Shown: one piece after another, positions 31,723-47,496 of the stretch
How the letters are laid out: every line of letters starts with the position of its first letter
Position numbering within the stretch: position 1 is the stretch's first letter
NCBI RefSeq assembly: GCF_003814915.1
Contig: NZ_RKQK01000001.1
Span: forward strand, 822,031 to 886,030
From: Pacificibacter maritimus
GTDB taxonomy: Bacteria; Pseudomonadota; Alphaproteobacteria; Rhodobacterales; Rhodobacteraceae
Reading direction: 5' to 3'
DNA length: 64,000 nucleotides
Notes under the pieces: generated by a model
The model's input: the letters and a program-made list of their open reading frames with translations, nothing else
The model's database searches: none
Told to the model about the DNA's origin: nothing
Translations under genes and position numbers: made by a program

Positions 31723-33024
31723 CTACAGGTATCTGTTGACCAAGTTTTCCAGACGTTCTTGGCGTCCAGATTTGGGTTGAGGATTGATATTTTCCGCCAC
31801 AACGCGGTCGTGCACCGTGGTCAAATCATCTTTCATCAAGGCCTTGCCTGCATCCGTGTCCCAGCCTGCATAACGCGCATCGCGGGCAGCTTCGAGTTTG
31901 CCATCTTCCAGCATGGCCGCCGCAGCTTTCAATCCTGCCGCGCAGGCATCCATGCCACCGACATGGGCTAGAATTAGGTCTTCTGCATCTAGAGATTGGC
32001 GGCGCAGTTTTGAATCGAAGTTTGTGCCACCGGTTTTAAAACCACCTGCGCGTAGAACTTCGTAATAGGCTAAAGCCATCTCAGGCACATTGTTCGGGAA
32101 TTGATCCGTATCCCAGCCCGATTGATAATCATTGCGGTTCATATCAATCGATCCAAGAATGCCCAATTCGCGCGCCATGGCCAATTCATGTTCAAATGAA
32201 TGGCCCGCCAAAATCGCATGCCCCTGTTCGATGTTGAGTTTTACTTCGTTTTCCAGACCGAAGTCTTTCAAAAATCCGTAGACAGTCGCAACATCGTAAT
32301 CATATTGATGTTTTGTTGGCTCTTGCGGCTTGGGTTCGATCAAGATCGTGCCTTTATAGCCCATCTTATGTTTGTAATCGACGACCATCTGCAACATACG
32401 GCCCGCTTGTTGGCGTTCACGGCCCATATCGGTATTGAGCAAGGTCTCATAGCCTTCGCGACCGCCCCAAAGCACATAGTTTTCACCACCCAATTTCATT
32501 GTGGCATCCATGCAGGTTTTGATCGTCGCGGCAGAAAAGGCAAAGACATCGGGATCAGGGTTTGTCGCAGCCCCTGACATAAACCGTTTGTGCGAAAACA
32601 GATTGGCCGTGCCCCACAACAGCTTTACACCTGTGGTTTCCATTTTCTCAGCGATGTAATCGACCATCACCGCAAGGTTTTTAGTATTTTCTGCAAAATC
32701 CGCCCCTTCTGGGCGCATATCCGCATCGTGAAAACAAAAATACGGCACATCCAAAATTTTAAACATGTCGAAAGCCACGTCTGCTTTCATTTTGGCCAAA
32801 TCCAATGTGTCGCCAAACCATGGTCGATCCAGTGTTTCCCCTCCAAAGGGGTCTGTGCCCGGCCATGCGAATGAATGCCAATAAGCCGCCGCGAAACGCA
32901 AATGATCTTTCATGGGTTTGCCCATGATCATTTCATCAGGATTGTAATGGCGAAAGGCAAATTCGTTATCGCTGTCTGGGCCTTCGTATTTAATGGCAGG
33001 AATGCCTTTGAAAAAATCGGTCAT
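31723..33024 (-). CDS. xylA: Xylose isomerase
   Basis: A 433-residue metal-dependent isomerase that converts D-xylose to D-xylulose. It is a long-type (class II) enzyme by length and by [12 protein letters not shown] (about residues 97-108), [17 protein letters not shown], the metal-binding [18 protein letters not shown] and [18 protein letters not shown]. It starts 1 base after the xylB stop, the last gene of the xylose operon. Confidence 0.97.
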
Positions 33025-33025
33025 C

Positions 33026-34465
33026 TTAAAGATCCTTTAGTACGGAATATGCGGCGCGGTAACGGGCCTGCGTGTCGTGGAAAGCTGGCATCAACTGCGT
33101 ATCGGGTTGGATGGTTTTCAAAATCGGAGGCATGGTGGCAATCTCTATTGTGCGCCCAGTTACAGCCATCATCCCAAGGCGTGCAGCACCAAGGGCTGCG
33201 CCAAAATCACCGTCTTTAGGCACCTGCAAAGGCAGTGCCAAAGTGGTGGCGATCACTTGCAACCAATAGTCAGATTTTGCGCCCCCACCGATCGCAAGTG
33301 CGCTTTGAATTTCAGTCCCAGTGGAATGCAAAGCCGCCTGACAATCACCAAAGGCAAAGGCGACGCCTTCAAGCACAGCGCGCGTGGCTTGTTTGATGTC
33401 AGTGGATGTGTCGAGATGCAAAAACTGCCCCCGAATTTTGGCGTCATTATGGGGCGTGCGTTCACCGCTGATGTAGGGCAAAAACAACGTACGACTTGGC
33501 GCGCGCAAATCCCCCAAATCAGCGGTCAACTCAGAAGCGGGCGTGCCCGTGAGTTGACTTAGCCATTGCAAAGCATCCGTGGCGGCCAAAATCACACCCA
33601 TCTGATGCCACGTGTCAGGCAAAGCGTGACAAAATGTATGAACAGCACTGGCCGCATCGGGACGGTAAGCATCACATGCGGCAAACAAAACGCCAGAGGT
33701 GCCCAGCGATAAAAAGGCATCGCCCTTTTTCACCACACCCGCGCCGATTGCCGAGGCTGCGTTATCACCGCCCCCGCCCGCAACGATCACGCCTTTGGGC
33801 AATCCCCAAGTTTGAGCAAGTGCATCGCGCAGCTGAGCTGAAGCCGCGCATCCTTCAACCAATCGCGGCATCTGTTCGCGGGTTAATCCCGTGGCGGCCA
33901 GCAGATCATCAGACCAATCACGCTTGGCCACATCCAGCCAGCTTGTGCCAGCTGCGTCAGACATTTCCGCCACATAATCCCCTGTCAGGATCAGTCGCAA
34001 ATAGTCTTTGGGCAACAAAACTTTTGCCACTTTGGCAAAAATATCCGGCTCGTTATTTTGTACCCAAACGAGCTTTGGCGCCGTAAAGCCCGCAAAGACG
34101 ATATTGCCCGTAAGATCGCGAAACTGAGGGTCTGAATCCAGTTTTGCAGCCTCGGCAGAGGCGCGGGTGTCATTCCACAAAATACAAGGCCGCAAAACCT
34201 GATCATCGGCATCAAGCAAGGTCGCCCCATGCATGTGACCCGACAGACCAATTCCGCGCACAGAAGATAAATCTGCCTTTGTTTGAAGCGCTTGCATGGC
34301 AAGATTCAAAGCATCGCCCCATTGGCTTGGGTGTTGCTCTGACCACCCCGCCGCACCGCGTGACACGGTAAGCGGTACGGCGTGTTCGGCCAAAATACTT
34401 TGGTTCTCGTCCATTAAAATCGCTTTTAAGGACGACGTGCCAAGATCCAATCCAATATAAGTCAT
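33026..34465 (-). CDS. xylB: Xylulokinase
   Basis: A 479-residue FGGY-family kinase that phosphorylates D-xylulose to xylulose 5-phosphate for the pentose phosphate pathway. Motifs: [17 protein letters not shown] at the N-terminus (phosphate-binding), [43 protein letters not shown] and [16 protein letters not shown]. It overlaps the ATPase gene upstream by 4 bases (ATGA) and abuts xylA, so all are one transcript. Confidence 0.96.
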
Positions 34466-35211
34466 GTCTTAGCCTTTGGATTTTTACCCAAGATAATCAT
34501 CGATAGAATGTCATCTTCGGTCACATCCTCAACGCGCTCGGACCCAATCATCTGACCGTTTTTCATCACGGCCACGCGGTCGCATAATTCCATCATTTCA
34601 CGGGTGTCATGGCTGATGAGAAAGATCCCTAAACCTTGTTTTTTCAACTCACCGATCAATTCGGCGACCATGGCCGTTTCATGCACCCCCAAGGCCGCAG
34701 TCGGTTCATCCATGATCAGAATTTTGGCGTTGAAATAGACAGCACGCGCAATGGCAACGGATTGGCGCTGACCACCTGACAAAGCTGACACGGGTTCTTT
34801 AAGCTTTTTGAAATTCGGATTGAGCCGCGCCATAATTTTGCGGGTTTCTGCTTCCATTTTCCCATCATCAAGCAGACCGAACTTTGTGGTCAATTCACGC
34901 CCCAAAAACAGGTTTGACGCCGCATCAAGATTGTCCGCCAAAGCAAGGGTCTGATATATCGTTTCAATGTTGTAATCACGACTGTCCGCAGGCGAATTGA
35001 TGGTGGCGCGCGTCCCTTCGATCCAGATTTCACCTGCATCCATTTTATAGGCGCCTGACAGCATTTTGATCAGTGTAGATTTACCCGCACCGTTATGCCC
35101 CAAAAGCCCCACGACTTCGCCAGCGTGCAATTCAATGCTTACATCATCAACCGCCCGCACACCGCCAAAAGCGATAGAGACGTTCTTCATTTCAACCAGT
35201 GGAGTGCTCAT
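34462..35211 (-). CDS. xylG: Xylose ABC transporter ATPase, single-domain form
   Basis: A 249-residue ATPase with one ABC domain: Walker A GLLGHNGAGKSTLIKML (about residues 34-50), signature ALSGGQRQSVAIARAVY, Walker B ILIMDEPTAALG, H-loop FLISHDTREMM. E. coli XylG carries two fused ABC domains of about 500 residues in total; here only one is encoded, so the working form should be a homodimer, as in FrcA-type transporters. It powers xylose import with XylF and XylH. It overlaps xylH and xylB by 4 bases each. Confidence 0.9.
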   Translation of the reverse strand: MSTPLVEMKNVSIAFGGVRAVDDVSIELHAGEVVGLLGHNGAGKSTLIKMLSGAYKMDAGEIWIEGTRATINSPADSRDYNIETIYQTLALADNLDAASNLFLGRELTTKFGLLDDGKMEAETRKIMARLNPNFKKLKEPVSALSGGQRQSVAIARAVYFNAKILIMDEPTAALGVHETAMVAELIGELKKQGLGIFLISHDTREMMELCDRVAVMKNGQMIGSERVEDVTEDDILSMIILGKNPKAKT

Positions 35212-36503
35212 AGTTTTGCTCCCATGCGCTTACGGTATTGAATGTCGATCCAGACGGCGAGCACAAGAACGGCGCCCACAACGATGTTTTGATAGGGCGC
35301 ATCGACCCCGACCATCGCCATGCCTGACTGCAAAGACTGCATAATTAAGGCCCCTATGATGGCCCCGTAGATTGTACCGATACCGCCAGACAATGCCGTA
35401 CCGCCGATCACTGCGGCCGCAATCACCCGCAATTCGTCAAGCGTGCCGATATCATTGGTGTGATAGCCCAAACGCGCTGACGCAACGATGCCAGCAAGAG
35501 CAGAAAGAACACCGACCATCGCAAAGATTTTCACAGTTAAAAGACGCGTGTTGATGCCAGAGAGTTGCGCCGCATCAGGATTACCGCCCGTCGCAAAGAT
35601 ATATCGACCAAGGCGCGTACGGCGCGCAATTACAGTCATCACAATCGCAACAACACTGAGTAAAAGGACGGAATAGGGCAAGCCATATGCGGCGGTGCAC
35701 CCCTCTGCGGTCGCGCAACCAAAGAGCTCGGGATTGCGCGCGATGACACGCGATGGCACGGAATAGGCGTTAAGAATGGCAACAAAACCAAGGATTGCGC
35801 CTGCTGTCAGGGTCATTACGACAGCTTCAGCCCAAATCGGTTTTACTGTAAATCCATGTGCTACCTTATTACGGCGTGCGGACCAAAGGCCAAACACAGC
35901 AGCCAAGCTGGCCACAAGCCCGACGATCCAGCTCCAAAAGACACCCAAAGTGCCGCCGATGCCGCCAAATAGAATGTATGTCTGATCAAGTGGACCGATG
36001 GTCGCCCCATCTGTCATCCACCAACCGACATTGCGCCAAATCAGCAAGCCGCCAAGGGTTACGATAAAAGCGGGAATTCCTTGATATCCAATCAACCAGC
36101 CCTGCCCAGCCCCGATTGCGGCGCCAGTGATCAACCCTGCAGCAATCGCAATCCAAGGGATCAAGGGATGCCCCAATTCCAAACCAACAATATTTGGCAA
36201 CCACTGTGTTTGGGTCATCGCCATGACGGCGGTACATGTGGCCAAGAGTGCGCCAACAGACAAATCAATGTGGCGGGTGACAATCACAAAAACCATTCCA
36301 GTGGCCATGATGGCGACCGACACGGTTTGGATGGTCAGGTTAAAGATATTGCGCGGTGTCAAAAAACGCCCGTCTGTCAATATGTTAAACACGATACATA
36401 CGGCGAAAAACGAACCAATCATCCCAAGCAGGCGCATATCCACTTGTAAGGTCTGCGCAAGGCTACGTTTGGGGTGTGGTGTGGTGGGGCTGTGGTCAGA
36501 CAC
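35208..36503 (-). CDS. xylH: Xylose ABC transporter permease
   Basis: A 431-residue inner-membrane permease of the ribose/xylose class with about ten hydrophobic segments. Family marks: GMVFVIVTRHIDLSVG (about residues 69-84), IPAFIVTLGGLLIWRNVGWW, and TGGNPDAAQLSGINTRLL and ALSGGIGTIYGAIIGALIMQ near the end. The start codon is GTG with GGAGGCAGACC upstream. It is separated from xylF by 154 bases containing a hairpin. Confidence 0.93.
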   Translation of the reverse strand: MSDHSPTTPHPKRSLAQTLQVDMRLLGMIGSFFAVCIVFNILTDGRFLTPRNIFNLTIQTVSVAIMATGMVFVIVTRHIDLSVGALLATCTAVMAMTQTQWLPNIVGLELGHPLIPWIAIAAGLITGAAIGAGQGWLIGYQGIPAFIVTLGGLLIWRNVGWWMTDGATIGPLDQTYILFGGIGGTLGVFWSWIVGLVASLAAVFGLWSARRNKVAHGFTVKPIWAEAVVMTLTAGAILGFVAILNAYSVPSRVIARNPELFGCATAEGCTAAYGLPYSVLLLSVVAIVMTVIARRTRLGRYIFATGGNPDAAQLSGINTRLLTVKIFAMVGVLSALAGIVASARLGYHTNDIGTLDELRVIAAAVIGGTALSGGIGTIYGAIIGALIMQSLQSGMAMVGVDAPYQNIVVGAVLVLAVWIDIQYRKRMGAKL

Positions 36504-36595
36504 GGTCTGCCTCCATCAAAAATCACAGTAATCAGGCATGTTTTTTGCACCAGTTAATCTGGACGCAAAAAAACGAGATCACATTTGGGATGTGC

Positions 36596-36618
36596 GGGCC
36601 TCGCTTTTCACGAGGCCC
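36596..36618 (-). other. Intercistronic hairpin between xylF and xylH
   Basis: Perfect 8-bp stem GGGCCTCG / CGAGGCCC with loop CTTTTCA, 39 bases after the xylF stop. It is followed on the minus strand by a mixed sequence, and a T-run appears only about 20 bases later. Likely partial terminator or RNA stabiliser setting the binding protein to permease ratio. Confidence 0.6.
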
Positions 36619-36657
36619 TATTGAAATAGACCAACACAGTCGGTCGATTTACGCGAT

Positions 36658-37680
36658 TTAGTTACAAGGTGCTGGGCCGTCAGTCACACCTTGGCACAAG
36701 GCTTCAACAGTGATCCAACCTGCATCTGTCACGACAGAAAGATTGTCGGCAGTGACAGGAATTGGCGCAAGGAACAAAGAGTTCAATTCAGTGCCTGCGG
36801 GCGATGTCCACATAGACGCGCCTTCGACCATTGCGTTGTCGCCGCCAGCCAAGGCAACAGCAACTTCACCTGCAACACGGCCGAGTTCGCGTGCGTCTTT
36901 CCACACAGAAACGGTTTGCGTACCAAGCGCCACACGATTCAAAGCAGCGTGATCACCATCTTGACCTGACACAGGAAGACCTTCGAGACCCTGTGCCGTC
37001 AAAGCAGCAACAACACCGCCCGCTGTCCCGTCATTTGATGCGACAACGGCATCGACGTTATTATCGTTTGCGGTCAGGATTTGTTCCATGTTGCGCTGCG
37101 CATTTGCAGGCAACCAGCCGTCTGTATAGGCTTCATCTACGATCGTAATGTCGCCGCTATCAATCGCAGCTTGGATAATTTCTTGTTGGCCACCGCGTAG
37201 GAAATCCGCATTTGGATCGGTGGGCGACCCTTTGATCATCACGTAATTTCCTGTGGGCTGTGCTGCAAAAACAGCGCGCGCTTGCATGCGCCCCACTTCG
37301 ACATTGTCAAAGGTCAGATAAAACGCACGGCTGTCTTCGATCAGGCGATCATATGCGATTACGGGAATGCCTTCGGCGTCAGCTGCCTCCACTGCTGGGC
37401 CGATTGCCGCACTATCTTGCGCCAAAATAATAATTGAATCAACGCCTTGCGCGATCAAGCTTTCTACGTCGGACAATTGCTTTGCAGATGAAGACTGCGC
37501 ATCTGCAGAGACGTAAGTCGCCCCAGCTGCGTCCAAAGCTGCACGAATTGCTGCTTCGTCAGTCTTCCAGCGTTCCTCTTGAAAGTTTGACCAGCTCACG
37601 CCGACTGTCAGATCATCTGCATAAGATGCGGAGCTAAAGCCCGCGGCGGCAACAGCCGCAGCGAATACATATTTATTCAT
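36658..37680 (-). CDS. xylF: D-xylose-binding periplasmic protein
   Basis: A 340-residue periplasmic binding protein of the ribose/xylose class. Signal peptide at residues 1-21 ([21 protein letters not shown]). The mature protein has [71 protein letters not shown] and [17 protein letters not shown], all in the XylF pattern. GGGAGGACTACA precedes the ATG. It is first gene of the xyl operon, divergent from the ROK repressor. Confidence 0.95.
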
Positions 37681-37721
37681 TGTAGTCCTCCCTTAGGTGG
37701 CTTTCTATTTCTCAACAGAAA

Positions 37722-37739
37722 GCGAGTCATGTGACTCGC
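37722..37739. promoter_or_regulatory. 18-bp palindrome in the xylF leader
   Basis: Perfect GCGAGTCA / TGACTCGC with TG between, 41-59 bases upstream of the xylF start. A weaker CTTTCT / AGAAAG pair sits beside it. It could be an operator or a 5'-leader hairpin. Confidence 0.45.
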
Positions 37740-37754
37740 AGCAACCTTGCCTCA

Positions 37755-37782
37755 TTTATTTCATTTTACAAAATAAAAAATA
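37755..37782. promoter_or_regulatory. Candidate XylR (ROK) operator
   Basis: AT-rich inverted repeat centred on ATTTT-AC-AAAAT (37763-37774, perfect), with partial complementarity extending about seven bases on each side. ROK repressors of xylose genes bind AT-rich inverted repeats in the divergent promoter, and this is the best candidate here. Confidence 0.45.
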
Positions 37783-37879
37783 TACATGAGAAAGAAAATG
37801 CGGCAATCTACTCAGAATTCAAGCGTGAAAATGCCTAAATTCATACAGGCCATGCGGAAATAAAAGGTATTAAATTTAG

Positions 37880-39160
37880 GTGCTGAAAAATAAAGAATCT
37901 AAAAACATTTCAATGGGCTGCGGCCCGCTGTTGGATAGGAGCACAGTCAACGCAAGACCATTGCGACAACAGATTTTTCAATTTGTTCGCGCAACGGGAA
38001 CAACGGCACGCGCTGACATCACGCGCGCCTTGCAGATTAGTGCAGGCAGCGCCACCACCCAGACCGCAGACCTCATAGCAGAAGGCTTACTGCGCGAAGT
38101 CAGCCAGACAGAGCGCGATCCAGAACCAGAACGCGGCTTGGGGCGCGGACGCCCCCGCGTGGCTTTGGAAATCGTGCCAGAAACAGCTCATGTTATCGGC
38201 ATCAAACTGACGGCAACAAAACATACCGCAGTCTTATGTGATTTCGCAGGCGACATCTTAGCCACTATGACAATCCCCACCCAAAACACGCGCAGAACGC
38301 CACAACAATTGCTGATAGAGATCATAACCCTGATCGAACGCCTTCTGGCTGCGGCAAAGATGAAACCAAGTGATATCAAAGCTGTAGGTCTCGGTATGCC
38401 TGGGATCGTTGACCACGGAACGGGTCAAATAAAATGGACGTCGCTGCTTGCAGATACGGATGTTGACCTCAGATCTGGATTTGCCGCCTACTTTGATGCC
38501 CCGCTTTATTTGGACAATGACACCAATATGCTGACCTTGTTTGAATTGTGGTTCGGAACAGGGCGCGACAAGACGGACTTTGCTGTTGTGACCATCGAAA
38601 CGGGCGTGGGCATGGGGATGGTGATGAACAATCGCCTTTATAGGGGCAGCCATGGGATGGGGCTTGAATTAGGGCATACAAAAGTTCAGCTTGACGGCGC
38701 CCTGTGCCAATGCGGATTGCGCGGCTGTTTAGAAGCTTATATCGGCGAATATGCCCTCACCCGCGAAGCTGAAACAGTGCTCGACGTGGGCCATACAGAT
38801 GTCCGCAGCCAAGAAGAACTGCTCGATATGCTCTTTACTGAGGCGCAAGCTGGGCACAAGCTTGCGGAATCAATCTTCAAACGCGCAGGCCGATATCTAT
38901 CAATGGGACTGTCCAATGTGGTCCAAATCTTTGACCCGCCACTCATCATTTTGTCAGGTGCACGCGTGCAATATCATTCGCTCTACGCCGAAGAAGTATT
39001 TGCAAATATGCAAAGCCTAACGCTCTCAAAGGGTCGCGCACCTTGTGATGTGCAAATCCACCGCTGGGATGATGACATTTGGGCGCATGGCGCAGCGGCC
39101 GCTGGCCTATCCGCACTCACCGATACCATCGTGGGCGGACTTGAGGTCCAACACACATGA
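37880..39160 (+). CDS. xylR: ROK-family transcriptional repressor of xylose genes (XylR-type)
   Basis: A 426-residue protein. The N-terminal helix-turn-helix is RADITRALQISAGSATTQTADLIAEGLL (about residues 42-69). A ROK sugar-kinase-like domain follows with VVTIETGVGMGMVMNNRLYRG, HTKVQLDGALCQCGLRGCLEAYIGE (the zinc-binding CxCGxxGCLE signature) and a late IILSGARVQ. Its divergent position to xylFHGBA makes xylose repression likely. The start is uncertain: GTG at 37880 or ATG at 37913, both with weak ribosome sites. The stop overlaps the next gene by 4 bases. Confidence 0.88.
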   Translation: MLKNKESKNISMGCGPLLDRSTVNARPLRQQIFQFVRATGTTARADITRALQISAGSATTQTADLIAEGLLREVSQTERDPEPERGLGRGRPRVALEIVPETAHVIGIKLTATKHTAVLCDFAGDILATMTIPTQNTRRTPQQLLIEIITLIERLLAAAKMKPSDIKAVGLGMPGIVDHGTGQIKWTSLLADTDVDLRSGFAAYFDAPLYLDNDTNMLTLFELWFGTGRDKTDFAVVTIETGVGMGMVMNNRLYRGSHGMGLELGHTKVQLDGALCQCGLRGCLEAYIGEYALTREAETVLDVGHTDVRSQEELLDMLFTEAQAGHKLAESIFKRAGRYLSMGLSNVVQIFDPPLIILSGARVQYHSLYAEEVFANMQSLTLSKGRAPCDVQIHRWDDDIWAHGAAAAGLSALTDTIVGGLEVQHT

Positions 39161-40641
39161 AACGCTTAAGCATTCTGATCGCCCTCGTTGCGCCTCCTGC
39201 CCTGTGCGATCCGACGTTTGAAGACCTCTCTCAAAACCTGCCAGAGCTCATCTATTCGGGCGGATGGACGCATTTTGTTGGCGGTGGCTTGGCGGTTTTG
39301 GATTGCAACAATGATGCCTTGCCAGATATTTTCGCCAGCGGCGGCGAACGCCCTGCGAAACTGATACGCAATGACGGGCAATTCATCTTTACCGATATGG
39401 AAGTACCGCAAATCACAGGGGCCACGGGCGCATATCCGATCGACATTGATGCCGATGGTATTCTCGATCTCTTTGTGCTGCGTGTTGGGCCAAATAAGGT
39501 CCTGAAAGGCCAAGGAAACTGCACATTCACCGAAGCCACAGATCACTTTGGTATGCCCGAGAACGACGCGTGGAGCACGGCCTTTACGGCATGGTGGGCC
39601 ACAGACTCGGAAGGTCCGACCATGGCGATTGGCAATTACGTTGACCGCAAGGATCCCGATGGGCCTTTTGAAGCCTGCGACACGAATACCTTGCTGTTGC
39701 CAAAGACAGAAGGATATCAAGCCGTCGCTTTAGAACCTGCGTTTTGCCCCCTATCTATGCTGGCCTCGCTAGATGCACGTGGGCGCAAAACACTGCGCAT
39801 TTCGAACGACAGACATTACTATGTCGAAGGTGGGTTTGAGCAAATGCTCGACATAGAGGAACAGCGTTTTCTGAATGAAAAAGACGGTTGGCCCAAAGTG
39901 TCGTTGTGGGGCATGGGCATCGCAAGCCGCGACCTGACGGGGGATGGGTTGGACGAGGTGATGCTGACATCAATGGGCGATCAAGTGCTGCAATTTGCTG
40001 GCGCGGATGGAACATATCGCGCCGCAAACTATGATATCGGCACTTATGCGCAACGCCCCCATCTCGGCGACGATGGTCGCCCATCCACAGGCTGGCACGC
40101 GGAATTTGGCGATATGAACAATGACGCCCTACCCGATCTTTTCATCGCAAAAGGCAATGTGGATCAAATGCCAAGTATGGCCATGAAAGACCCGAACAAC
40201 CTATTGATGCAACATGCAGATGGGGTCTTTCATGAGGCCGCGGCAAAAGCTGGCTTAGCCACAACTGAACGCTCTCGTGGGGCCGCTTTGGTGGATTTTG
40301 ATCTGGACGGTTTGTTGGATGTCATCGTGTCCAACCGACGCGCACCACTAGAAATTTACCGCAACACCAGCGAAAATATGGGCAATTGGATCACCGTTGA
40401 CCTGCAGCAATCAGGGCCCAACCGCAATGCAATTGGCGCCGTGATCACCGTAAAAACCGATCACCACATACAAACGATACAGCACACGATTGGCGGCGGT
40501 CACGCAGGTGGACAATTGCTTGCACGCCACTTTGGCTTGGGCGACAGCACGCAGGCAAAGGTCTTTGTCGATTGGCCAGATGGCAGCAGAACGCAGGCTG
40601 ATTTTCAGGCAAACAGTAACGTAAAGATCACGAAGCCCTAG
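39157..40641 (+). CDS. Secreted FG-GAP/VCBS repeat protein with ASPIC/UnbV C-terminus (CRTAC1-like)
   Basis: A 494-residue exported protein; signal peptide MKRLSILIALVAPPALC (about residues 1-17). It has FG-GAP-type calcium-binding repeats: DCNNDALPDIF (about 50), DIDADGILDLF (about 97), DLTGDGLDEVM (about 262), DMNNDALPDLF and DFDLDGLLDVI. These should form a beta-propeller. The C-terminal 85 residues match ASPIC/UnbV (GGGHAGGQLLARHFGLGDST then VDWPDGSRTQ). The biochemical role of such proteins is unknown in bacteria. Its ATG overlaps the xylR stop (ATGA), and it ends directly against the convergent di-haem peroxidase gene. It is rich in Trp around residues 144-156 (WSTAFTAWWA). Confidence 0.85.
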   Translation: MKRLSILIALVAPPALCDPTFEDLSQNLPELIYSGGWTHFVGGGLAVLDCNNDALPDIFASGGERPAKLIRNDGQFIFTDMEVPQITGATGAYPIDIDADGILDLFVLRVGPNKVLKGQGNCTFTEATDHFGMPENDAWSTAFTAWWATDSEGPTMAIGNYVDRKDPDGPFEACDTNTLLLPKTEGYQAVALEPAFCPLSMLASLDARGRKTLRISNDRHYYVEGGFEQMLDIEEQRFLNEKDGWPKVSLWGMGIASRDLTGDGLDEVMLTSMGDQVLQFAGADGTYRAANYDIGTYAQRPHLGDDGRPSTGWHAEFGDMNNDALPDLFIAKGNVDQMPSMAMKDPNNLLMQHADGVFHEAAAKAGLATTERSRGAALVDFDLDGLLDVIVSNRRAPLEIYRNTSENMGNWITVDLQQSGPNRNAIGAVITVKTDHHIQTIQHTIGGGHAGGQLLARHFGLGDSTQAKVFVDWPDGSRTQADFQANSNVKITKP

Positions 40642-41985
40642 TCAGTCGACAAGAGGCACGGGCAAGCCGCTGGGGACAGTTTCAGGCGACCCCAAACGCC
40701 CCGCCTTGCTGATCGGGTCGGTCAAAAGCTGCAAAAAGGCGACGATTTGCGCCACCTCGTGATCTGCAAGCGCGACAGGCTCAGCCGTTACAGCGGCGGC
40801 GATGGCATCGCGTTGATCTTGCGCATCCATAATATTGAAATCATGCCCATCAAATGCAGGTAAAACCGCTTGGCTGCGGTCATAGCTGGCAAGGCGCGCA
40901 GCAGGATCAGCGTGGTCAGCCACAAAATGCGCCAAATCGCGATGTGCCCCCGCATGACCATATGGGCCCGTCAATGCCACATTGCGCAACGAAGGTGTGC
41001 GAAACGCATAGCGGTCGCTTTCAATTCCAGTGACGCGAAAACGGCCATCATCGCGATTATGAGTTTCAAAGGGTTCCGATTTTCCTGGTCCAATTTGCGG
41101 GGCGGCCATCACATGAAACTGGTGATCCGTCAGAAACGGACCCGCATGACAATCAGCGCAATTGGCTTTGCCGTAGAACAAATCCAACCCAGCTTTCTCA
41201 TCTCCTTGCAGTGTCAAATCACCGCGCAAAACGGCATCGAAAGGTGCAGTATCAGACCGCCATTCGAATTCCATGAAAGCGGCAAGCGCATTTGAAATAT
41301 CGGTAAATCCAATATCATCGGCCGAGTTTATATGTGGATAGACCTGCACGAAAGCATCGGCATATCCGGGAATTTCAGCCACACGGCGCGCGAGCACATG
41401 CCACGCGCCACCTTCGCCTGAAATGATACCTTGGCGCACCAAACGCCCAATTTCATTTTCGCGAAATGATCCCGCCATTTCATCACGACTAAGCACGGGG
41501 AACATGGTTTGCGCGGATAAAACAGACGCAAAGCCATCAATGATATCTGCCCCCATAGGCGTGCGTATCCCGCTGGGATGATCTGCTGCGACCTCTAGGC
41601 GGCCATCATGAAACATGGATGTAAATTCCAAAGCCCCCAAATTGAATAAAGCAGGTGCATTTCGTGGAATGCGCTCTTCAGGCAGGTTCTGGGGATCGGC
41701 CTGCCGCTTTGTCCCCATGCCGATACCGCCGTCACCAAAAGACAAAGACACCCCATCAGATGTGCCAAGTTTTGGGTGGTGGCAAGACACGCAGGCCGTG
41801 GTCATATTGCCGGACAAAATGGGATCGTAAAATAACAACTGGCCCAACTCGGCTTCATGGAGGTGCACAGCGCGGTATAAATCATCGGTGATTGCTGCGG
41901 GCAAGGTTTGCGCCTCGACAGGCATGCTTGTGACACTGCCAAGCAAAACGGCATGCATGAGGGCGGTTTTGAAAATCGAAGTCAT
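40642..41985 (-). CDS. Di-haem cytochrome c peroxidase / MauG-family protein
   Basis: A 447-residue periplasmic protein with a signal peptide (cleavage likely after VEA at about residue 25) and two c-type haem sites: ACVSCHHPKLG (about residues 64-74) and NCADCHAGPFLTDHQFHVMAAP (about 276-297). The FYDPILSGNMTTACVSCHH block is typical of bacterial CCP/MauG proteins. Members either reduce hydrogen peroxide or oxidise aromatic residues of a partner protein. The neighbour encoded convergently, with no bases between the stops, is an exported FG-GAP/UnbV protein that might be a partner. No strong ribosome site is seen before the ATG. Confidence 0.88.
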   Translation of the reverse strand: MTSIFKTALMHAVLLGSVTSMPVEAQTLPAAITDDLYRAVHLHEAELGQLLFYDPILSGNMTTACVSCHHPKLGTSDGVSLSFGDGGIGMGTKRQADPQNLPEERIPRNAPALFNLGALEFTSMFHDGRLEVAADHPSGIRTPMGADIIDGFASVLSAQTMFPVLSRDEMAGSFRENEIGRLVRQGIISGEGGAWHVLARRVAEIPGYADAFVQVYPHINSADDIGFTDISNALAAFMEFEWRSDTAPFDAVLRGDLTLQGDEKAGLDLFYGKANCADCHAGPFLTDHQFHVMAAPQIGPGKSEPFETHNRDDGRFRVTGIESDRYAFRTPSLRNVALTGPYGHAGAHRDLAHFVADHADPAARLASYDRSQAVLPAFDGHDFNIMDAQDQRDAIAAAVTAEPVALADHEVAQIVAFLQLLTDPISKAGRLGSPETVPSGLPVPLVD

Positions 41986-42106
41986 ACCAAGCTTAGTCCG
42001 CCAACACTGTTTAGGGTTTTAAGAAACACTATGAGCTTGCCACTCTCATCGCAAAGAAAAACGTCATGAGACCGACCAGAATGCCCCCTTCGCGATGAGC
42101 ATAGAA

Positions 42107-42136
42107 CGAAAAAGGGCCGCCCTGAGGCAGCCCTTT
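42107..42136 (-). terminator. Terminator of rplM-rpsI
   Basis: Minus strand: 11-bp stem AAAGGGCTGCC / GGCGGCCCTTT (one G-T pair), loop TCAG, followed by a T-run. It lies about 40 bases after the rpsI stop. Confidence 0.88.
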
Positions 42137-42177
42137 GAAAGTATATATCCAATGTCCAAAGACTTTGGCGATCGAAA

Positions 42178-42660
42178 TTAGCGTTTTGAGAACTGGAAAG
42201 AACGACGCGCTTTGCGGCGACCGAACTTTTTACGCTCAACAACACGTGAATCGCGTGTAAGGAAACCAGCTGCTTTCAAAGCACCGCGCAACTCAGGTGT
42301 GTAGAGTTGAAGTGCTTTTGAAATACCGTGCTTAACCGCACCAGCTTGACCTGACAGACCGCCGCCTTTGACAGTTGCGTAAACGTCGAATTCACCTTCA
42401 ACACCAGCAACAGAGAATGGCTGACGCAGGATCATTTGCAAAACTGGACGCGCGAAGTATGCGTCTTGGTCTTTGCCGTTTACGACAACTTTGCCTGAGC
42501 CTGGTTTGATCCAAACACGTGCAACAGCGTCTTTACGTTTACCAGTCGCGTAAGCACGACCAAGCGCGTCACGTACAGGTTCACGAGGTGCTGCAACTTC
42601 AGCAACAGTTTCAACGCCAACAGCGTTCAATTCTTCCAATGATTTGATTTCATCAGTCAT
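42178..42660 (-). CDS. rpsI: 30S ribosomal protein S9
   Basis: A 160-residue protein with [29 protein letters not shown] (about residues 34-62), the S9 core [19 protein letters not shown], and the C-terminal tail [19 protein letters not shown] that reaches the P-site tRNA. The N-terminal 30 residues are an acidic extension seen in alphaproteobacterial S9. It follows rplM by 2 bases in the standard L13-S9 operon. Confidence 0.98.
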
Positions 42661-46239: not shown

Positions 46240-46863
46240 ATGCCAGCACCCTATCCTATTCCTAGTAATCCGCCCAAACACACCTCGCTTGAGGATATCC
46301 AAGGACTTGCCATTGGGCTTGTGACCTCGGCCATCGGTTTAAGCTTTCTCGCACAACTTGGGTTTATCACAGGGCAAACCGCGGGACTGGCTTTGGTTAT
46401 TTCCTACCTGACGGGCCTTAGTTTTTCGTGGATATTTTGGCTGATCAATATCCCTTTTTATATTCTCGCTTACTATCGTATCGGCACAGAATTCACATTA
46501 AAATCAGTGATTTCCGTGACAGCTTTGTCCATTCTGATGGCCTATATTCCACCTTTGATGCAGTTTAAGACGCTTGATCCTTTCTTTGGAACGATCGCTT
46601 TTGGTGTGCTTACAGGCTTTGGTTTATTGGGCGTTTTCCGCCATAAATCATCGCTTGGCGGCCTTGGGGTTTTAGCACTTATTGCGCAAGATCACTTCGG
46701 CATTCGAGCTGGATATGTGCAGATCGCCTTTGATGCGATCTTGTTCGCTGTTGCATTTTTTCTGTTTGACGCGCATGTGGTACTTTATTCGTTGTTTGGC
46801 GCTTTGATTTTGAATGCGGTCATCGCCTTCAATCACCGCCGCGATATCTACATCGCCAGTTAA
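46240..46863 (+). CDS. YitT-family (DUF161-type) membrane protein, copy 1
   Basis: A 207-residue inner-membrane protein with about six hydrophobic segments. It has LGFITGQTAGLALVISYLTGL (about residues 43-63) and HKSSLGGLGVLALIAQDHFGIRAGYVQIAFDA (about 133-164), the GG-x-G and RAG parts typical of the YitT family. Function of the family is not established. The end NAVIAFNHRRDIYIAS is nearly repeated in the next gene, 18 bases downstream, showing a tandem duplication. The ribosome site is weak. Confidence 0.82.
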   Translation: MPAPYPIPSNPPKHTSLEDIQGLAIGLVTSAIGLSFLAQLGFITGQTAGLALVISYLTGLSFSWIFWLINIPFYILAYYRIGTEFTLKSVISVTALSILMAYIPPLMQFKTLDPFFGTIAFGVLTGFGLLGVFRHKSSLGGLGVLALIAQDHFGIRAGYVQIAFDAILFAVAFFLFDAHVVLYSLFGALILNAVIAFNHRRDIYIAS

Positions 46864-46881
46864 CTGAAAACGAGCTGAGAC

Positions 46882-47496
46882 ATGATTAAGTCGACCACCG
46901 CCGCAACGAAACATACACTGTTCGAAGATGCCCAAGCCTTTGTTTATGGCACGGCGATTTGCGCCTTTGCCTTGATGATGCTCAAAGATTTAGGGTTCAT
47001 CACAGGACAAACTGCGGGTCTGGGCCTGTTGATATCATATCTATTAGACCTGCCCTTTGGCTGGGTCTTTTTCGCGGTCAACTTGCCATTTTACTGGTTT
47101 GGATACAAACGTATGGGCATCAAGTTTGTCATCAAAACATTCGTCTGCGTTGGACTGATTTCCATCTTTACCGAAGTGTTCCCAAGCCTGATTTCCTTTG
47201 CCACACTCAATCCAACCTTCGGCGCAATCATGATCGGTTTTATGACGGCATCAGGCCTGATGGCCATCATTCGTCATGGGGGATCACTGGGCGGCATCGG
47301 AATTATGGCACTTTATATTCAAGACGCATTTGGGTTCAAAGCGGGCTATGTGCAGCTAGGCTTTGATGCCTGTTTGTTCACTGTCGCAGCCTTCGTTTTA
47401 CCGCTTGATTTGGTGGCCTATTCACTTTTGGGCGCTGTTGTCGCCAATCTTGTAATCGCAATCAATCACCGCCGCGACAGATATATCGCCACATAA
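46882..47496 (+). CDS. YitT-family (DUF161-type) membrane protein, copy 2
   Basis: A 204-residue paralogue of the preceding gene with the same topology: LGFITGQTAGLGLLISYLLDL, HGGSLGGIGIMALYIQDAFGFKAGYVQLGFDA and the end NLVIAINHRRDRYIAT. The two align over their whole length, with the motif blocks nearly identical and the other helices diverged. Eighteen bases separate the genes, so they are probably co-transcribed and may form a heteromer. Convergent with the M48 peptidase gene. Confidence 0.82.
   Translation: MIKSTTAATKHTLFEDAQAFVYGTAICAFALMMLKDLGFITGQTAGLGLLISYLLDLPFGWVFFAVNLPFYWFGYKRMGIKFVIKTFVCVGLISIFTEVFPSLISFATLNPTFGAIMIGFMTASGLMAIIRHGGSLGGIGIMALYIQDAFGFKAGYVQLGFDACLFTVAAFVLPLDLVAYSLLGAVVANLVIAINHRRDRYIAT

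Follow-up and report, generated by a model that had tools for sequence, protein, structure and literature searches.

What is an exported propeller protein doing beside a D-xylose locus, face to face with a MauG-like di-haem protein? The question is raised by a stretch of 64,000 nucleotides from Pacificibacter maritimus, a member of the Rhodobacteraceae (contig NZ_RKQK01000001.1, positions 822,031 to 886,030), which we call the window and whose own numbering is used for its genes. Two open reading frames (ORFs) are at issue:

39157-40641, + strand: propeller, exported FG-GAP/UnbV (CRTAC1-like) protein of 494 amino acids, recognised by Pfam, with four invariant Cys
40642-41985, - strand: di-haem protein, exported, CCP/MauG superfamily, 447 amino acids, with haem sites CVSCH and CADCH

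An earlier note, made from the letters alone, had described these ORFs as converging with abutting stops and zero bases in between, and had read them as a partner pair in which the di-haem enzyme would oxidise tryptophans of the propeller. The layout is confirmed, and the partnership is borne out by co-occurrence over 198 genomes together with six non-neighbouring pairs that have been retained. The stronger result is that three parts are associated, namely a xylose importer, the propeller and a peroxidase-type enzyme of one kind or another; a tryptophan of the propeller, W37, follows the enzyme. The link to the importer gene xylF, the exchange of partners and W37 are all beyond what the note had named. 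They suggest that in many marine bacteria of roseobacter type sugar uptake is tied to an as yet unstudied oxidation beyond the cell membrane.

A propeller and its peroxidase-type partners

The counts refer to 198 genomes from the family of P. maritimus. The propeller is found, at E values up to 1e-20, in 104 of them, in one copy each, and matches to the di-haem protein in 122, with a close subfamily of the latter (at least 420 bits) in 83. This subfamily bound was set after inspection of the table, the lowest score inside being 423.6 bits and the next below it 399; di-haem matches were listed individually when they scored at least 315 bits. Co-occurrence, proposed earlier as the check on the pair, is marked: 81 genomes have both proteins, 23 the propeller only, two the di-haem subfamily only and 92 neither (Fisher p 2e-31, a value that serves as a ranking, because the genomes are related and Fisher values overstate their independence). 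The two genes lie within 8 kb of each other in 72 of the 81 genomes and are convergent in 69 of these 72; the zero-base gap is not conserved, the match ends of convergent neighbours being 2 to 1833 bases apart. Six genomes keep the pair apart, at 676 kb in G018 and on different contigs in G107, G111, G137, G143 and G183; G040 has its di-haem gene on a separate contig and a vanadium-haloperoxidase-like (VHPO-like) gene next to the propeller, and contig ends prevent a neighbour call in G032 and G147. Among the best 80 of 552 named relatives, a convergent di-haem gene is present in 73 and the ROK-family gene described below in 74, no di-haem gene being seen in seven of the 80 loci within the stretch covered; the genera with the locus among these 80 are Litoreibacter, Planktotalea, Octadecabacter, Loktanella, Sulfitobacter, Celeribacter and others. 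We hold it very probable that propeller and peroxidase are functionally coupled. In two loci (L137 of G014 and L148 of G025) the pair is not convergent, and a xylF-like gene, 48% identical to that of the window, lies between its members.

The slot of the di-haem gene can be filled by other enzymes. In ten fetched loci lacking a di-haem neighbour, a VHPO-like gene directly precedes the propeller and shares its strand; in nine of them the two ORFs, as called, overlap. The motifs K-x6-RP, PSGH and RxxGGxH, which we take to be the vanadate site, are present in all ten, and a PAP2 (PF01569) match was found in the one locus tested for it. Four more genomes bring to 14 those in which such a gene adjoins the propeller. 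A DHOR-type di-haem protein occupies the slot in G120 (PF06537 match) and in G083 (a homologue of the G120 protein). A peroxidase-type partner thus accompanies the propeller in 96 of its 104 genomes, of MauG type in 81, VHPO-like only in 13 and DHOR in two. The other eight genomes are G057, G017, G008, G169, G042, G027, G019 and G166, the contig ending at the possible slot in G019, G027 and G166; G057, G017, G027 and G008 encode a CCP/MauG-type protein at another place in the genome, and G008 also has a weak VHPO-like match.

Alignment counts refer to 95 of the 104 propellers (G019, G021, G022, G027, G032, G068, G118, G147 and G166 were left out), which were split by score into a MauG group of 79, including the partnerless L069, and 16 others, including L155 of G040 with its additional non-adjacent di-haem gene. 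Several residues track the type of partner, among others G169, F171 (Trp with VHPO and DHOR partners), H220, Q276, G307, Q337 and R372; they may reflect ancestry rather than an interface, because partner type follows the propeller tree. In that tree, built by a quick method from 69 propellers with 43 of 78 MauG-group rows, the VHPO rows come together as a single clade (99), three changes are required for the MauG group, and the DHOR and partnerless rows are scattered.

The link to the xylose importer

The gene xylF (E up to 1e-70) is found in 108 of the 198 genomes. Propeller and xylF are both present in 101, the propeller alone in three (G027, G042, G069), xylF alone in seven and neither in 87 (p 2e-43), so that 101 of the 104 propeller genomes have xylF and 101 of the 108 xylF genomes have the propeller. 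The link holds at a distance (1.8 Mb in G034, 2.0 Mb in G104, 0.6 Mb in G175), and in G026, G191 and others the two are on different contigs and both still present. Within the xylF genomes the di-haem subfamily follows the propeller, being found in 80 of the 101 that have it versus one of the seven that do not (p 9e-4); this single case, G124, has a contig with xyl, ROK and di-haem genes and no propeller match. That propeller and xylose importer are coupled is a conclusion in which we have high confidence.

The genes of the window that correspond to this association, beside the pair itself, are as follows:

37880-39160, + strand: ROK-family regulator (XylR-like by position only)
36658-37680, - strand: xylF, D-xylose ABC substrate-binding protein (TIGR02634, 453 bits, above the cut-off of 390)
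35208-36503, - strand: sugar ABC permease, XylH-like by position (best NCBIfam model GguB, 289 bits, below the cut-off of 450)
34462-35211, - strand: sugar ABC ATPase, XylG-like by position (best NCBIfam model RbsA, 232 bits, below the cut-off of 745)
33026-34465, - strand: xylB, xylulokinase (TIGR01312, 546 bits, above the cut-off of 380)
31723-33024, - strand: xylA, xylose isomerase (TIGR02630, 677 bits, above the cut-off of 533)

With xylA, xylB and xylF all above their curated cut-offs this is a D-xylose locus, whose importer and enzyme genes lie past the ROK gene, on the strand opposite to that of ROK and propeller. The stop of the ROK gene and the start of the propeller overlap by four bases (ATGA), as they do in 16 relatives for ORFs as called, starts being uncertain there. 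The ATPase of the window is single-domain (249 amino acids), while the XylG and RbsA models have about 500 positions. Elsewhere in the window, at 46240-47496, two adjoining YitT-family membrane genes form an apparent tandem duplication.

Few genomes beyond the family have the propeller: 11 of 289 drawn from the class match, four of these in its own family. Twelve out-of-family loci were read, the partial propellers L249 and L255 being left out of the count. Eight of them are xyl transporter loci (L250, L252, L309-L314), and all the adjacent partners seen out of the family are there, DHOR in L250, L312 and L313 and VHPO-like in L314. The latter, from another class, reads xylB-xylA-xylF-xylH-xylG-propeller-VHPO on one strand, the names being given by similarity to the genes of the window; a propeller-VHPO fusion in this locus was ruled out by translation and Pfam, the propeller part being out of frame. 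In L251 and L253 the propeller is next to liv-type (branched-chain) ABC permeases instead of xylose genes, from which we surmise that it may serve other importers too. In L254 and L315, of one genus, it is next to neither xyl nor liv genes, and no Pfam match was obtained for the gene beside the propeller in L254 or for the PSGH-bearing frame of L315. Of seven further loci from within the family, two are without adjacent partner, L316 has VHPO and the other four have a di-haem gene. From the partnerless loci in and out of the family it follows that propellers may occur with no partner next to them.

W37 and the presence of a partner

The earlier note had put the target in a tryptophan cluster of the propeller, WSTAFTAWWA, and this part of its proposal is very improbable. 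In the MauG group W139 is kept in 79 of 79 propellers and W147 in 75, W146 in 17 only, and both W139 and W147 are as well conserved where this partner is missing, with 15 and 16 of the other 16 propellers, and 14 and 15 of the 15 without adjacent partner, respectively. What stands of the proposal is that a propeller tryptophan may be the target, not at the named cluster: it is W37 that follows the partner. The comparison comprised 120 rows, of which 82 had a MauG-type partner, 16 VHPO, five DHOR and 15 no adjacent partner, the remaining two, both with W37, being left out since they lie at contig ends. Every propeller whose partner is of MauG type has W37 (82 of 82, six of these pairs being non-neighbouring), as have 16 of 16 with a VHPO-like one and four of five with DHOR, that is 102 of 103 with a partner, as compared with five of 15 without an adjacent one (Fisher p 3e-10, relatedness not being allowed for). 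A search covering nine of the 15 genomes of these partnerless rows gave a CCP/MauG-type match elsewhere in the genome in G008, G017, G057, G267, G392 and G404, and none in G042, G169 and G443.

The sole MauG-group propeller without W37 is L069 (8954-10573 of its stretch in genome G169), which has Pro there. Genome G169, in which none of the three enzymes is matched, provides a natural test case for partner loss: it has xyl genes, a ROK gene and a propeller that keeps the MauG-group residues. As judged from comparison of sequences, W37 is the best single candidate for the site, short of proof; alternatively it may be a contact residue.

The two proteins

The ORF of 447 amino acids is a MauG-like di-haem protein, as first supposed: it matches the CCP/MauG superfamily in Pfam (PF03150, 112 bits against a cut-off of 25.6) and has two CXXCH motifs, which are found in all 81 fetched members of its subfamily. 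The best curated model, TIGR03981, covers nearly its whole length with 243 bits, below the cut-off of 340, and it is neither a MauG by TIGR03791 (101 bits against 443.85) nor an MbnH by TIGR04039 (110 bits against 362.85). Foldseek retrieves MauG and bCCP, with MauG 4y5r as best match (E 3e-12). It was aligned with L274, a MauG-like row that scores below the MauG cut-off, and with two MbnH rows that pass the cut-off of their own family, L276, L278, L279 and L280 being left out. The inter-haem Trp of MauG (Trp93) is absent: His126 stands in the column of the Trp of L274, which by alignment we take to be that of Trp93, the two MbnH rows having a gap there. This residue is His in 73 of 81 subfamily members and Trp in none. 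The Tyr ligand of MauG (Tyr294) is absent as well, the HY of L274 and of the two MbnH rows being replaced by His358-Ala359; His358 is kept in 80 of 81 members, with Tyr at 359 in none and at 357 in three of 81. One may guess that His358 serves as the sixth haem ligand. Among the Foldseek matches is the structure 3orv of the Y294H variant of MauG, a variant that has reportedly lost the activity forming tryptophan tryptophylquinone (TTQ).

A sister MauG-like subfamily, about 41-47% identical, lies beside TRAP transporter genes (L083, L084, L086, L088, L090, L093, L094), in most cases with a luciferase-type monooxygenase gene and what read as flavin reductase and aldo-keto reductase genes; perhaps this is another MauG-like enzyme tied to a transporter. 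Sister di-haem genes in L082, L089, L092 and L097 lie in a conserved stretch of housekeeping genes that read as trmFO-, gluQ-, recG- and ligA-like, with no obvious exported partner in that stretch.

The ORF of 494 amino acids is the exported propeller with a UnbV end that the earlier note had described, Pfam finding FG-GAP_3 in five stretches and UnbV_ASPIC. These domains and a CRTAC1-like fold place it in the CRTAC1/UnbV family, to which phmmer also assigns it (E 1e-18). The N-termini of both proteins, judged by eye, are read as Sec-type signal peptides. The AlphaFold2 model of the propeller (mean pLDDT 87.6, pTM 0.90) has CRTAC1 9etn as its best match in the PDB, with a TM-score of 0.74 by query length. 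All 95 of the aligned propellers have the four Cys. Residues 221-223 and 300-308 have pLDDT values below 50, though located within or next to stretches of high conservation; in this predicted model this would fit loops that may settle only upon binding a ligand or partner. As to a sugar-enzyme fold, the match to aldos-2-ulose dehydratase 4a7k (E 3e-8) is no better than those to integrins, and nothing was drawn from it.

Comparison with known systems

MauG, MbnH/MbnP and SACCP/MopE are di-haem enzymes with dedicated partners, according to the part of PMC3621798 that bears on them. As in the latter two (same part of PMC3621798), an exported di-haem protein of the CCP/MauG superfamily is encoded here with its partner, and the pair is conserved across genomes; unlike them, the partner is of FG-GAP/UnbV type, the setting is xylose rather than copper, the HY motif is missing and other peroxidase-type families can fill the partner slot. 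The MbnP model is absent among the NCBIfam matches of the propeller (up to E 1). With MauG and methylamine dehydrogenase the pair shares the fold and a possible protein substrate; it differs in lying far below the TIGR03791 cut-off, in having by alignment no equivalents of Trp93 and Tyr294 and in its neighbours, since the genes tested at 31723-42660 (xyl, ROK, propeller, di-haem, ribosomal S9) contain no mau operon. The nearest curated model, TIGR03981, is that of the His-Xaa-Ser MauG-like proteins, yet the di-haem protein is below its cut-off; HxsC (TIGR03977) had no match in 61 genomes, an absence that is unproven as no control genome matched either.

Hydrazine synthase (HZS) offers another parallel. 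Its gamma subunit is of the same superfamily as MauG, with a bis-His haem, and its beta subunit is a cofactor-free propeller (from a section of PMC12607021); clusters of HZS homologues in other bacteria carry a CRTAC1-family gene, those of clade III also ABC substrate-binding genes (from a section of PMC12758564). The profile of our di-haem protein reaches HZS gamma 5c2v_C (E 4.5e-7), which has a His at the inter-haem Trp position. Both systems have a CCP/MauG-like di-haem subunit with propellers and, by that section of PMC12758564, a CRTAC1-family gene alongside. They differ in phylum and in the xyl, ROK and ribosomal neighbours found here. BthA of Burkholderia belongs to the MauG superfamily, has no inter-haem Trp, as here, and still forms bis-Fe(IV) (in the part of PMC6405878 that treats it, where no propeller partner is mentioned), so that a missing inter-haem Trp need not preclude strong oxidation by the di-haem protein. 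By profile BthA is distant, 6nx0 and 6v59 (E about 1e-24) being among the weakest of 30 matches. In the open-licence literature of PMC we found nothing on the propeller/di-haem pair, on its xylose link or on the exchange of partners.

Weighing the explanations

We may now propose how the parts would work together. Outside the cytoplasm, the propeller would assist the XylF-type pentose importer, working with a dedicated peroxide-using enzyme, here the MauG-like di-haem protein. With H2O2 as presumed oxidant, this enzyme would oxidise the propeller itself, rather than a molecule bound to it, presumably giving it the working state in which it handles the sugar before uptake, with W37 as best single candidate site. 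Taken whole, as an oxidative module of pentose uptake, located in the periplasm, whose peroxidase oxidises the propeller, perhaps at W37, this is a tentative reading that we place slightly below an even chance. The oxidation of the propeller by its partner, considered for itself, is held in nearly balanced doubt too, our confidence having risen a little because of the W37 result. A bolder version, where the propeller is a new sugar-handling periplasmic protein and a standard part of one pentose-importer lineage, its working site made at W37 by interchangeable H2O2-driven enzymes (MauG-like di-haem, DHOR di-haem or vanadium-haloperoxidase-like) and the Trp decaying after loss of the enzyme, is unlikely, if somewhat less so than before W37 was noticed.

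Several observations weigh against the proposed module. The clearest counter-cases are two genomes in which none of the three enzyme types is matched: G169, rated 100% complete, which keeps xylF and propeller, and G042, 98% complete, which has no xylF and a divergent propeller. No adjacent partner is seen in eight of the 12 out-of-family loci, four of them (L252, L309-L311) of one family, nor in L318 and L319 within the family (one genus; G795, G818). For VHPO and DHOR partners the evidence is adjacency, because genome-wide searches for them covered 15 genomes. The di-haem protein is missing the inter-haem Trp and the Tyr ligand of MauG. Relatedness of the genomes inflates the Fisher values. 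The scan that brought out W37 covered 494 positions, and P170, G295 and P339 passed it as well, less sharply; five partnerless propellers keep W37, and one DHOR-paired propeller is without it. A quick tree taking in 38 of the 82 MauG-group rows gives five supported independent comparisons for W37, on average 2.8 going the expected way, none the opposite way and two undecided, a result that is not significant in a test that cannot reach significance. Finally, contact between propeller and partner and the modification of the propeller are predictions from sequence comparison.

It is rather unlikely, in our view, that the two proteins form instead a joint enzyme, a lasting peroxidase-propeller complex that oxidises or splits a sugar-containing substrate in the periplasm, XylF importing the product. 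The propeller would then be a scaffold or substrate site, as compared with hydrazine synthase, where a CCP/MauG-like gamma goes with a propeller beta. Strong pairing and partner exchange agree with such a complex, W37 is equally explicable as a contact residue, and there are parallels with HZS: the di-haem profile reaches 5c2v_C, HZS beta is a cofactor-free propeller (section cited of PMC12607021), and CRTAC1-family genes are found in HZS-homologue clusters, with ABC binding genes in clade III (section cited of PMC12758564). However, the di-haem gene is mostly on the opposite strand (69 of 72) and not co-transcribed, some propellers have no adjacent partner, and the substrate is only hypothetical. 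A looser arrangement, with separate roles in one regulon, would have the propeller serve uptake of the sugar and confine the di-haem, DHOR or VHPO-like enzyme to removing or using H2O2 that arises from sugar use. Peroxidase activity of the bCCP kind is common in the CCP/MauG superfamily, propellers without adjacent partner exist, and the propeller follows xylF (101 of 104) more closely than it follows the di-haem subfamily (81 of 104). Yet within the xylF genomes the di-haem protein follows the propeller (80 of 101 versus one of seven), W37 follows the partner, and general removal of peroxide would need no dedicated partner, which makes this arrangement quite improbable.

The version of the earlier note, taken here as oxidation by the di-haem enzyme of the WSTAFTAWWA tryptophans to kynurenine, a crosslink or a quinone in the manner of MauG and MbnH, can call upon the pairing itself and upon W139 and W147 (79 and 75 of 79); with W146 kept in 17 of 79, W139 and W147 conserved regardless of partner, and inter-haem Trp and Tyr ligand absent, it becomes very improbable. 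That the two genes are neighbours by chance, merely travelling with a conserved xyl locus, where most pairs do lie, is barely credible and already disfavoured, given the six non-neighbouring pairs, the other peroxidase-type genes in the slot and the recurrence of the association in other families and in another class.

Implications

The proposed module makes a concrete prediction for two large uncharacterised groups of exported proteins, the CRTAC1-like propellers and the MauG-like di-haem proteins, which would work jointly near a sugar importer, W37 being the residue that deserves attention. It is uncommon that the place next to one kind of propeller can be taken either by a haem enzyme or by a VHPO-like one; this suggests that the chemistry, oxidation by peroxide, matters more than the enzyme which performs it. 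The association also bears on why CRTAC1-like genes flank homologues of hydrazine synthase. Xylose uptake is usually described as simple transport by a binding protein; if the proposal is true, an oxidative step would have to be added to it in widespread marine bacteria.

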